NCBI GenBank assembly: GCA_029289095.1
Contig: JARFUG010000020.1
Coordinates: 1 to 41,193, forward strand
Length of the DNA stretch: 41,193 bases
Origin: Desulfuromonadales bacterium
GTDB taxonomy: Bacteria > Desulfobacterota > Desulfuromonadia > Desulfuromonadales > JACZKF01
Reading direction: 5' to 3'
Shown: positions 33,307 to 38,290 of the stretch, in pieces
Position numbering within the stretch: the stretch's first letter is position 1
Layout of the letters: each line of letters opens with the position of its first letter
Program-made: the position numbers and the translations under genes
Notes under the pieces: generated by a model
The model's database searches: none
What the model saw: the letters and a program-made list of their open reading frames with translations, nothing else
What the model was told of the DNA's origin: nothing

Positions 33307-33663
33307 CTAGGCCTGTGACGCTTTGAATTCCTCGGCGGTGAGACAAAGGACGCGAGTTCCTCTGCCGTCGGGGTTGATCTGCACTTCGGTGATCGCCATC
33401 ATCGTGTCGGAGAGCCACGCCTTGGTGAAACGTTCCATAGAAACGGCATGGGATTCATACGGTGGGCCAATGGGGCGAGCCTTCCTGAGGAATTCATCAG
33501 CCTTCTCCTTGCTGGACCAGACCGGAAGCGAATATCCGGTTTTGTCGAGCTCCAGGGCGTAGATGTTCTTGTAGACACTTCTCGCCACCCATAGCTCTCC
33601 AGTGCTCTGGACATCATCGAAAAATCTCTTCACTCCGATATATTCAACATTCTCGAGATCCAT
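33307..33663 (-). CDS. DUF2750-like protein
   Basis: A 118-residue soluble protein. It contains GELWVARS...YALELD...SLPVWSSKEKADEFL and, later, MERFTKAWLSDTMMAITEVQINPDGRG. This follows the DUF2750 pattern (a 'V-W' strand, then a 'P-W/F-W-x-xxEyA' block and a final 'L-x-x-W-L' helix and strand). Function unknown. AAGGAG lies 9 bp before ATG 33663, and a perfect -10 box (TATAAT, 33708-33703 on the minus strand) lies about 40 bp upstream, though without a clear -35. It is flanked by two copies of the same REP-like motif. Confidence 0.65.
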   Translation of the reverse strand: MDLENVEYIGVKRFFDDVQSTGELWVARSVYKNIYALELDKTGYSLPVWSSKEKADEFLRKARPIGPPYESHAVSMERFTKAWLSDTMMAITEVQINPDGRGTRVLCLTAEEFKASQA

Positions 33664-33912: not shown

Positions 33913-33949
33913 GGGAAGGCAAGGTGAACTCTTGGACAGGAGGCGCTCC

Positions 33950-34612
33950 ATGGTCGAAAAACCTGAATTGGTCAGTTTCAAGCTTTGACCCTACGTGCAG
34001 AGGGCGGTCGTCCTCCTGAACGAAAAAGGGGTCGAATACGGCGTCACCTACATCGACCTGAAAAACAAGCCGGATTGGTTCCTGAAGATCTCGCCGCTCG
34101 GCAAGGTGCCTGTGCTGAAGGTCGGCGAATCGGTTCTCTTCGAGTCGGCGGTCATCTGCGAGTACCTCGACGAGGTCCATCCTCCGTCGCTTCATCCTGC
34201 CGACCCGCTGAAAAAGGCATTCAACCGGGCGTGGGTCGAGTTCTCCTCCGAGCTCTTCGGAGCGCTCCATCGACTCTATCTCTCCGCCGACGCGGCGGAG
34301 CTCGACCAGAGGCGTGCCGATGCCAGGGAGAAACTGCGCAGGCTGGAAGAGACTCTCGGAGACGGACCGTTCTTCAACGGACCTCGTTTCTCCCTTATTG
34401 ACGCCGCCGTCGCTCCGGCCTTCACGCGCATCGCGCTGGTCGAGACGATCCGGCGGATGGGACTGCTCGATGAATTGCCGAAGATGCAGCGTTGGAGCGA
34501 GGCCCTGCTGGCGCGAGACGCGGTACGAAATTCCGTCGTCTCCGAGTTCCCCGATCTCTTCCGGGAATACCTGGCCGCCAACGGTAGCTCCCTGGTGCGG
34601 GACCAGGGCTGA
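33950..34612 (+). CDS. Selenocysteine-containing glutathione S-transferase-like protein
   Basis: A 220-residue GST-fold protein if TGA at 33986-33988 is read as selenocysteine (residue 13). The N-terminus then reads SFKL-U-PYVQRAVVLL, where GSTs of this type have SFKLCPYVQR, so Sec replaces the catalytic Cys. Downstream are the thioredoxin-fold GKVPVL and ESAVICEYLDE glutathione-site motifs and the helical C-domain (FSLIDAAVAP). ATG 33950 has AGGAGG 6-7 bp upstream, while the frame after the TGA has no ribosome site and starts only at a GTG. A SECIS-like hairpin follows the TGA. It probably reduces or conjugates a peroxide, disulfide or electrophile; substrate unknown. It converges on the Sec-FrnE gene. 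Confidence 0.85.
33998..34018 (+). promoter_or_regulatory. SECIS-like hairpin of the GST selenoprotein
   Basis: CAG+AGGGC (33998-34005) pairs with GTCCT+CTG (34010-34014, 34016-34018) with one bulged C, giving an 8-bp stem with loop GGTC (34006-34009). The loop starts 17 nt after the TGA. Bacterial SECIS elements need such a hairpin with a G/U apical loop just after the UGA to bind SelB. The other Sec gene here has the same GGUC loop. Confidence 0.7.
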
Positions 34613-34623
34613 AAATAAGAGTT

Positions 34624-34692
34624 GGTCGGAAAAGGTCTCCCCGGCAAATCGGGAGAGGAGTATTTCTGTCCGGCGGTTCCCCGGGGCATCAT
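34624..34692 (-). pseudogene. Frameshifted 5' remnant of a methyltransferase gene
   Basis: On the minus strand, 34678-34624 matches 55 bases near the start of the methyltransferase gene at 38310-38978 (its 38957-38903) at 43 of 55 positions. One frame reads NRRTEILLSRFAGETFSDQ against NRLTEKLLPRFSGESLFDR. Both begin with ATGATG, but here 7 bases are missing after it, so the frame is broken, and nothing beyond about 24 codons remains. Its ATG overlaps the stop of the Sec-FrnE gene (ATGA), as if it was once a coupled downstream gene. Confidence 0.6.
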
Positions 34693-35276
34693 GCGGTGAC
34701 CAGCCGGCGGAGGTCTTCGTAGGGGTGAAAGCCGACGAGCTTGTGCTCTCCGTAGATATGCGTAGGCACTGCGGTGATGCCGAAGGCGAGGGCGCGCTCC
34801 CAGTCCGCATTGACGGCGGTGGCGAATCGGCCTTCGTCAAGAACCCGCACCGCGTCCTCTCCCGGAAGCCCCGCCGCTTCGGCGATGAGCTTCAACTCCT
34901 CCGGCTTGGAGATATTGCGCCCGTCGACGAAGTAGGCACGAAAGACGGCGTCGCGAAACGCCTCGCCGCGCCCCAGTTCTTCCGCCCATTTCCCCAGCTC
35001 CTGGGCGCGGCGGCTGTTGAAGGTGCGGGTCCGATTGCCGATGGGAAGCCCCACTTCGAAGGCCACCTGTCGCAGCCGGACCAGAGCATCGGAGACGTCC
35101 AGCCGCCCGGCGAAGAGCTCTGAGAGCTCCATCCCTTCTTCCGGAATTTCCGGGTGCAGTGGAAAAACGGACCACCGGGGCTCCAGCGCATGTTCCCGGC
35201 ACAACTGCTCGATACGGACCGTATCGAAATAGCACCAGGGTCAGATGTAGTCGAAGAAAATTTCGAGGGTAGCCAT
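34689..35276 (-). CDS. frnE: Selenocysteine-containing DsbA/FrnE-like oxidoreductase
   Basis: A 195-residue thioredoxin-fold protein if TGA at 35243-35241 is read as selenocysteine (residue 12). The N-terminus then reads LEIFFDYI-U-PWCYFDTVRIEQL. FrnE-type DsbA proteins have CPWC at this place, so the active site is U-P-W-C, with Cys15 as the partner. Further family features are PLHPEIPEEG, the inserted helical domain, and GITAVPTHIYGEHKLVGFHPYEDL with the cis-Pro TVP-like motif (AVPT). Without recoding, the protein would lose its active site. No strong ribosome site precedes ATG 35276. No signal peptide, so cytosolic, as FrnE is. It should exchange disulfides or reduce peroxides; the partner is unknown. 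Confidence 0.85.
35209..35227 (-). promoter_or_regulatory. SECIS-like hairpin of the FrnE selenoprotein
   Basis: On the minus strand, TCGATAC (35227-35221) pairs perfectly with GTATCGA (35215-35209) around the loop GGTCC. The stem starts 13 nt, and the loop 20 nt, after the TGA. Stem length, distance and the GGUC in the loop agree with bacterial SECIS elements and with the hairpin in the GST gene. Confidence 0.75.
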
Positions 35277-35435: not shown

Positions 35436-35496
35436 GGGAATTGCTGAAACAGCGCTCGTCCCCCCCATCCCGGGTCGCCCGAGAAAGGAGTTGCCC

Positions 35497-36117
35497 ATGG
35501 GTGCCGAATACAAAAAATTGTCTAAAGAAGACGCCGCCGTCCTGCTGATCGATCACCAGTCGGGGCTGATCTCCCTGGTGCAGGATTTCTCGCCCGGCGA
35601 GTTCAAGAACAATGTCCTGGCCCTGGCGAACGTGGCCCGCTTCTTCAAGCTGCCGACGATACTGACGACCAGCTTCGAAGCGGGGCCGAACGGGCCCCTC
35701 GTTCCCGAGCTGCTCGAAATGCTCCCCGATGCCCCGGTGATCGGGCGTCCCGGTCAGATCAACGCCTGGGACAACGAGGAGTTCGTTGAGGCGGTGCGAC
35801 AGACCGGCCGCCGACAGTTGATTCTCGCAGGGGTGGTCACGGACGTCTGCGTCACCTTCCCCACCCTGTCGGCGATCGAGGAGGGGTATGACGTCTTCGT
35901 TGTCACCGACGCCTCCGGAACTTTCAACGAGGCGGTGCGCCATGCGGCGTGGGCGAGGATGGCGGCTGCCGGCGTGCAACTGCTGAACTGGTTCAGCGTC
36001 GCCTGCGAACTGCACCGTGACTGGCGAAACGACATCGAGGGGCTGGGAAGCCTGCTCGCCGAGCACATCCCCGCCTATCGCAACCTGATGACCAGCTATA
36101 ACGCGCGGCAGAAGTGA
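35497..36117 (+). CDS. Isochorismatase-family (YcaC-like) hydrolase
   Basis: A 206-residue cysteine hydrolase. AVLLIDHQSGL contains the catalytic Asp19, and GVVTDVCVTFPTLSA the nucleophile Cys118 after the typical cis-peptide VTD. RPGQINAWDN (about 84-93) is a strong YcaC-type block. YcaC-like enzymes are cytosolic, oligomeric and of uncertain substrate; amide or isochorismate-like ether bonds are possible. AAAGGAG lies upstream of ATG 35497; the longer frame has no ribosome site. It is followed by a strong hairpin and then a cupin gene. Confidence 0.87.
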   Translation: MGAEYKKLSKEDAAVLLIDHQSGLISLVQDFSPGEFKNNVLALANVARFFKLPTILTTSFEAGPNGPLVPELLEMLPDAPVIGRPGQINAWDNEEFVEAVRQTGRRQLILAGVVTDVCVTFPTLSAIEEGYDVFVVTDASGTFNEAVRHAAWARMAAAGVQLLNWFSVACELHRDWRNDIEGLGSLLAEHIPAYRNLMTSYNARQK

Positions 36118-36206: not shown

Positions 36207-36512
36207 ATGCAGCATTGGGAAGTCCGGCAGCCGAAAGAGGAATTCAAGGTTCTGGGCGGCTCGGCTCGCTCTCAGGCGGCGATCATGGTCCTGGCTCCGG
36301 GCGAAGACTCCGGAGAAGGATTCAGCACCCATAAAGGGGACCAATGGCTGTTCGTCCTCGCCGGAAAAGGACGGGCAGTTGTCGGCGAGCGGAAATTGGA
36401 TATCGGCGCCGGTTCGCTGGTGCTGATCGAAGCCGGCGAGCCTCACCGGATCGAGAATGTCGGCGAGCAGCCCCTGGAAACACTGAATTTCTATGCTCCG
36501 CCGGAGTATTGA
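36207..36512 (+). CDS. Small cupin protein
   Basis: A 101-residue single-domain cupin. GFSTHKGDQWLFVLAGKGRAVV matches cupin motif 1 in shape: His near residue 40, with Gln46 where a second His is usual. LIEAGEPHRIENVG matches motif 2, with His78. One of the usual metal ligands thus looks replaced, which is common in small cupins of unknown role. GGAGG lies 5 bp before ATG 36207. It is followed 38 bp later by the FAD oxidoreductase gene, so the two may be co-transcribed. Confidence 0.8.
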   Translation: MQHWEVRQPKEEFKVLGGSARSQAAIMVLAPGEDSGEGFSTHKGDQWLFVLAGKGRAVVGERKLDIGAGSLVLIEAGEPHRIENVGEQPLETLNFYAPPEY

Positions 36513-36550: not shown

Positions 36551-38290
36551 ATGTCCCTGACCATGGCCCCCGAAATAGTGCGGACCGAAGTGCTGATCAT
36601 CGGCGCAGGAGCTTCCGGGCTGCGCGCCGCCATCGAGCTGGCAGCCCGAGGCAAGGAGTGCCTCGTCATCGGTAAACGCCAACACGGCGACGCGCATACC
36701 GGTTGGGCCGCAGGGGGGATCAATGCGTCTTTCGGTCACAGGGACCCCGAAGACCGATGGCAGCTCCATGCCGCCGACACCATCCGCGAAGGGCATTTCA
36801 TCTGCCGCCCCGAGGCGGTGGAGTTTCTTGCGCGGGAGGCGCCGGAGCGGGTTCTGGAGTTGCAGGAGTGGGGTTGCGACTTCGCTCTGACCGAAGACGG
36901 TCGCATCGATCAGCGCTATTTCGGTGCTCAGTGCTTCCGGCGCACCTGCTTCGTCGGCGATCGCACCGGCAGAGCCATTCTGCAGACGCTGGTGAGTCGG
37001 GCCGAAACGCTTCAGGTCCCCTGGCGGGAGAATATCTACATCACGGCGCTGCTCACCGATGGGCGCGATGGACGGGTCTGCGGCGCGGCAGGGCTTGACC
37101 TCGAGCGCAGAAGGCCGGTGGTGTTCGCCGCCGGAGCCGTCCTCCTGGCTGCCGGCGGTTACACCAGTATCTTCGGGCGCACCACGTCCCGGCGAAACGA
37201 GAATACCGCAGACGCCGTCGCATTGGCCTGTCGGGCGGGGGCGGTGTTGCGGGACATGGAGATGGTGCAGTTTCATCCGACCGGCATGGTCGCCCCCGAG
37301 GAGATGTCGGGACGCCTGGTCACCGAGGCGGTGCGCGGCGAAGGGGGGCGGCTCTTCAATGCCGATGGTGAACGCTTCATGTCGCGTTTCGCTCCGGAGG
37401 AGATGGAGCTGGCGGCGCGCGACGTCGTCGCCCGCGCCATTTTCGAGGAGATCGAGAGCGGAAGGGGGACCCCATCCGGGGCGGTCTTGCTCGATATCTC
37501 CCATGTGGATTCCGACACGGTCCGCGAGCGCCTGCCGGGGATGGTCGCCCGATTCGCCGAATACGGCATCGACATCACCCGGCAACCGATGGAGGTGGCG
37601 CCTACGGCCCATTACGCCATGGGGGGGATTCGGGTCGATTTCGCCGACGGCGCCACGTCCCTTCCCGGGCTTTTCGCTGCAGGCGAGGCGACCTCCGGAC
37701 TGCACGGCGCCAACCGCCTGGGAGGCAACTCCCTGGCCGAGACGGTCGTTTTCGGACGCCGCGTCGGTATCCATCTGGCCGAATTGGAGACGCGGCTCCC
37801 CTCTGACGGGACCGTCGAGGCGCTCTCTCGCGATCACCTGAAATTTCTGGACGATCTGTCTCGATCCGAAGGGCGACGAAGGCCTGGAGAACTGATCCAG
37901 AAGCTCGGGAGGATTCTGGACGAGCGGTGCGGCATTCTGCGCGACGGCGACGGACTGCGACACGGGGTGGAAGAAGTAGCGGCGCTCAGGGAAGAGTCGG
38001 CCGATCTGCTGGTTTCATGGGAAGATCTCCCCCAGGCGCTCGACCTTCGATGCATGCTCCCTTGCGCCGAGGCGATGCTGCGCAGCGCCCTGGAGCGCAG
38101 GGAGTCGCGAGGCGCTCATTTCCGCCGGGATTTCCCGGAAACAGACAGCCGCCAGGAGAAAAACATCCTCTGTCGGGAAGGGGGCGACGGAGTCCTGGAG
38201 TTCTCCACCGAGCCGGTGCCCGAGATCAGCGAAGAAATCCGGTCGGCTCTCGAGGAAAGAAGAATTCTCGAATATGGACATCTGGAATAA
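36551..38290 (+). CDS. Orphan FAD-dependent oxidoreductase (FrdA/SdhA/NadB family)
   Basis: A 579-residue flavoprotein. The N-terminal Rossmann motif is GAGASG (18-23). Family blocks follow: HTGWAAGGINASFG near 56-70, MEMVQFHPTGM (His-Pro-Thr-Gly), VRGEGGRLFN, HYAMGGIRVD and LPGLFAAGEATSGLHGANRLGGNSL. These define the succinate dehydrogenase/fumarate reductase/L-aspartate oxidase superfamily. The C-terminal helical domain is complete. No iron-sulfur or membrane subunit gene is adjacent, so it is not a normal Sdh/Frd complex. NadB-like or thiol:fumarate-reductase-like (TfrA) use of a soluble partner is possible. GAGAGGAG precedes the start. The cupin gene lies just upstream. Confidence 0.85.
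   Translation: MSLTMAPEIVRTEVLIIGAGASGLRAAIELAARGKECLVIGKRQHGDAHTGWAAGGINASFGHRDPEDRWQLHAADTIREGHFICRPEAVEFLAREAPERVLELQEWGCDFALTEDGRIDQRYFGAQCFRRTCFVGDRTGRAILQTLVSRAETLQVPWRENIYITALLTDGRDGRVCGAAGLDLERRRPVVFAAGAVLLAAGGYTSIFGRTTSRRNENTADAVALACRAGAVLRDMEMVQFHPTGMVAPEEMSGRLVTEAVRGEGGRLFNADGERFMSRFAPEEMELAARDVVARAIFEEIESGRGTPSGAVLLDISHVDSDTVRERLPGMVARFAEYGIDITRQPMEVAPTAHYAMGGIRVDFADGATSLPGLFAAGEATSGLHGANRLGGNSLAETVVFGRRVGIHLAELETRLPSDGTVEALSRDHLKFLDDLSRSEGRRRPGELIQKLGRILDERCGILRDGDGLRHGVEEVAALREESADLLVSWEDLPQALDLRCMLPCAEAMLRSALERRESRGAHFRRDFPETDSRQEKNILCREGGDGVLEFSTEPVPEISEEIRSALEERRILEYGHLE

Follow-up and report, generated by a model that had tools for sequence, protein, structure and literature searches.

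GST-like selenoproteins were described in the Sargasso Sea survey (2005, PMC1088965; 4 sequences, COG0625) and again in the GOS survey (2008, PMC2398784; 12 members). The family is also listed in two reviews (PMC9312934, 2022; PMC13188914, 2026), where MEK9676863.1 and PPR62222.1 are given as representatives, and the functions of such selenoprotein families are described as largely uncharacterised (PMC13188914). For Desulfuromonas soudanensis WTL, 13 known selenoprotein genes are given (PMC12013277), and a paper on dual-code deltaproteobacteria (PMC8318568) makes no mention of a GST. The window analysed here, i.e. the whole stretch of 41,193 nucleotides from a Desulfuromonadales bacterium (contig JARFUG010000020.1), carries a gene that resembles the survey proteins in being a GST with an in-frame UGA and many Cys homologues. 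It was placed with them by COG and Pfam name (COG0625 / PF13409, the latter being its best Pfam match); the survey proteins are metagenome sequences, whereas the window copy comes from a genome of its order. Since GST-like selenoproteins were already reported in 2005 and 2008, the kind is known and the window gene is a further member. The novelty implied by the initial annotation was therefore too high for a family that is already listed (PMC1088965, PMC2398784, PMC13188914).

The GST reading frame and its start

The initial annotation had described an AGGAGG followed by ATG 33950 and, after 12 codons, by a TGA, and these elements were found at exactly the positions claimed (Table 1). The TGA lies in the context SFKL-TGA-PYVQR and is the only one in frame before the terminal TGA. 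The frame beyond it, claimed to be an intact GST, does stay open up to the terminal codon and matches both the GST_N and the GST_C domains of Pfam; when codon 13 was decoded as Sec, the protein matched GST_N_2 (2.9e-21), GST_N_3 and GST_C_2, all above the curated cut-offs. As expected of a bacterial selenoprotein, the ORF is intact and conserved apart from this one in-frame UGA, and both the frame and the position of this codon can be read directly from the sequence.

A standard ORF caller placed the start of the GST at GTG 33995, as had been foreseen, and the open frame of 205 aa that follows could in principle be the real product, with the upstream part left untranslated. However, such a protein would be without strand 1 (residues 6-9) and without the catalytic residue 13 before helix 1. 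No Shine-Dalgarno sequence is visible before 33995, whereas a good one precedes 33950, and the AGGAGG is also present in the two Sec relatives L023 and L024, in which the start and the ISFKL peptide are conserved too. Furthermore, the peptide E-L-(V/I)-S-F-K-L is maintained at codons 6-12. We consider it very unlikely that the shorter protein is the real product. Automatic annotation drops the first 15 residues of the GST and, with them, its active site.

Table 1. Positions of the GST gene, its predicted recoding elements and the flanking genes in the window.
Feature	Position	Strand	Remarks
DUF2750 protein	33307-33663	-	divergently upstream of GST
Shine-Dalgarno AGGAGG	33938-33943	+	6 nt 5' of ATG 33950
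Predicted selenoprotein ORF, 220-residue omega-like GST	33950-34612	+	Sec = residue 13; stop TGA 34610-34612
Extended putative SECIS fold	33984-34036	+	lower stem takes in UGA; RNA folding, synonymous depletion
UGA codon predicted to be read as Sec (codon 13)	33986-33988	+	at catalytic-Cys position; alignments
Core of putative bacterial SECIS hairpin	33998-34018	+	apical loop GGUC 34006-34009; RNA folding
DsbA-like selenoprotein with UPWC	34689-35276	-	tail-to-tail with GST; UGA 35243-35241; PF01323, 1.7e-26
Isochorismatase-like gene	35485-36117	+	near selenoprotein pair
Cupin gene	36207-36512	+	near selenoprotein pair
FAD-binding gene (fumarate reductase / aspartate oxidase type)	36551-38290	+	near selenoprotein pair

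Sec and Cys forms at the catalytic position

Homologue searches in 136 genomes of the window's order and in a species-level genome collection gave 39 sequences spanning codon 13, the window gene counted. Codon 13 was TGA in 7 of them, TGC or TGT in 32, and nothing else, and the earlier claim that the TGA occupies the Cys column of the family thus holds for 39/39 aligned sequences, all with Cys or Sec there. In a 20-sequence alignment, residue 13 was invariantly Cys or Sec and the protein was conserved along its whole length. Three of the TGA forms belong to genomes of the window's order (the window gene, L022; L023, 74% identical; L024, 69% identical), and those outside it come from a Chloroflexi MAG (L037) and from three Rhodospirillales MAGs (L043, L044 and L057, near-copies). 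A search of 395 genomes drawn across the phylum (E <= 1e-40) matched only the window's own GST, so near homologues are scarce beyond the order. In the ORFs listed around L023 and L024 and compared by eye, no gene was found in common with the flanks of the window gene.

One base change is enough to turn TGC or TGT into TGA, and the gene could be a pseudogene with a nonsense mutation, or the product of a sequencing error, at the catalytic codon. However, the same TGA is kept in both order-mates and in other phyla, no other stop lies inside the GST of the three order members, and conservation extends over the whole protein as well as the upstream peptide, the start and the Shine-Dalgarno sequence. 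Degraded upstream regions in the relatives had been named as a sign against a selenoprotein; instead, the close relatives keep the TGA, the start, the Shine-Dalgarno sequence and the ISFKL peptide. A pseudogene or sequencing error is highly improbable on this evidence. Chance does not explain why, in several lineages, the stop is found in the column of the catalytic Cys and nowhere else.

In the gene tree, the TGA forms are found in three separate places, and the maximum-likelihood tree calls for at least three changes between Sec and Cys (gains, losses or transfers), two of which are forced by well-supported branches. The Sec/Cys GST pairs are well supported and would allow a direct test of the benefit of Sec over Cys.

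Selenocysteine machinery and the RNA following the UGA

The genome of the window (3.5 Mb, estimated 100% complete) was searched for the sel genes, as had been proposed, and selA (629 bits), selB (390 bits) and selD (358 bits) were all found, consecutively on contig C89; the genome also has a tRNA-Sec with a UCA anticodon. Across genomes, selA was present in 7/7 with a TGA-form GST compared to 4/10 tested with the Cys form. If the UGA were instead read as another residue, by general reassignment or by a suppressor, in-frame TGA would not be expected to be missing from selA and selB of this genome, as it is, and the GST ORF itself would not end in TGA; in addition, the column otherwise holds only Cys and the tRNA-Sec is at hand. 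Decoding as a residue other than Sec is extremely unlikely, and the in-frame UGA is almost certainly a selenocysteine codon. The proposal of a probable GST-like selenoprotein is therefore supported by the Cys/TGA column, the sel genes and the intact upstream region. The selD gene on the same contig has a single in-frame TGA of its own (SSG-U-AAKLAPG), as in many bacterial SelD.

In bacterial SECIS elements of the E. coli fdhF type, a hairpin with a GGU-type apical loop lies immediately 3' of the UGA, which is close to or within the lower stem. The putative hairpin in the window shares this placement, the type of loop and the UGA near or in the lower stem, and differs in the sequence and length of the stem. 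It begins 9 nt after the UGA with the GGUC loop that had been noted earlier, the distance from the UGA to the loop is 17 nt, and a G is found in the first two loop bases. The same core hairpin with a GGUC loop was folded by L022, L023 and L024, while the Sec forms from Chloroflexi and Rhodospirillales have a different stem. Its z-score was about -1.2 to -2.2 in several folding windows, and Rfam at a permissive threshold returned only chance matches for the UGA region. The loop geometry is found at 430 of the 1152 TGA triplets of the window (37%), geometry plus hairpin energy at 47 (4%) and a GGUC loop at 15 (1.3%). Since this geometry is so common, the hairpin alone proves little, and it was rejected as stand-alone evidence.

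Synonymous change was scored at amino-acid-identical codons among L022, L023 and L024. In the 48 nt that follow the UGA (33989-34036, 16 codons), 6/46 comparisons were changed compared to 176/393 further on, which is the lowest value of 177 windows; pairwise Fisher tests gave p = 0.003-0.026 for pairs that are not independent. Among four Cys control groups, two were without a drop and two had a milder one; the counts were 14/41 compared to 221/448 in the Roseobacter Cys group (20 of 194 windows as low) and 30/78 compared to 379/700 in a second group of order-mates with Cys (5 of 181 windows as low). The Rhodospirillales Sec trio was too nearly identical to be informative. As judged from these codon comparisons, the constraint after the UGA is stronger evidence than the hairpin, for which a SECIS role is predicted. 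During translation, a SelB/tRNA-Sec complex would bind the hairpin just 3' of UGA 33986, and Sec would be inserted as residue 13, which belongs to the glutathione site and marks the N-terminal end of helix 1.

Predicted fold, chemistry and the DsbA-like neighbor

The nearest solved relatives by sequence were human GSTO1 entries (E 5e-29), in which Cys32 aligns with Sec13. The AlphaFold model is a complete GST (pLDDT 95.3) in which residue 13 immediately precedes helix 14-25, and Foldseek with this model returned tau and omega GSTs first (E 1e-12 to 1e-14). The N- and C-terminal domains and a catalytic Cys/Sec at helix 1, as in Cys-type (omega-like) GSTs, were thus found by Pfam, by the PDB match and in the model. 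Human GSTO1 (PDB 1eem, 6pnm and 3vln) shares with the window GST the fold, the catalytic position and the glutathione-site motifs VP and ES, which align, but it has Cys in place of Sec and is only ~30% identical; entry 3vln is the crystal structure of its C32S mutant, altered at the residue equivalent to Sec13. The genome also contains a gshA-like gene (PF04107, gamma-glutamylcysteine ligase family; 206.7 bits, over the cut-off) and a gshB-like (glutathione-synthetase-like) gene (282.5 bits, just under the NCBIfam cut-off of 299), which makes glutathione plausible as the thiol.

It is very probable that the product of the gene is an omega-like (Cys-type) GST containing Sec, which would be inserted via the hairpin and act as a thiol-transfer nucleophile. 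Glutathione-dependent thiol-transferase chemistry, suggested by knowledge of the family, is less sure than the rest and is perhaps moderately likely. Sec13 would then attack as the nucleophile, form a mixed selenenylsulfide with GSH, and reduce disulfides, glutathionylated proteins or small oxidised substrates. Each of the three Sec-GST order members has a glutathione-synthetase match; one order member with selA and a Cys-form GST (G073) has none, a single case that is possibly due to chance.

The DsbA-like neighbor is a separate gene that is not needed for the GST. It is absent, at the threshold used, from the two order-mates with Sec-GST (G001 and G135); the two genes are thus not a conserved pair, and we do not propose that they act together. 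A broader reading, in which one omega-like GST clade acquired Sec independently at least twice and Sec-GST and Sec-DsbA-like proteins form a selenium-dependent thiol/disulfide module here, seems improbable to us. By name and Pfam, the neighbor corresponds to an already known family of selenoproteins, the DsbA-like UxxC proteins (PMC13188914), and it has the sequence MATLEIFFDYI-U-PWC, in which the UGA takes the place of the first Cys in CPWC. A Cys form of this gene was not seen in any of the 136 genomes of the order. Orthologues were found in 33 of these genomes, each best match with exactly one TGA, and the TGA was in the same column in 20/20 loci read, the window's own included.
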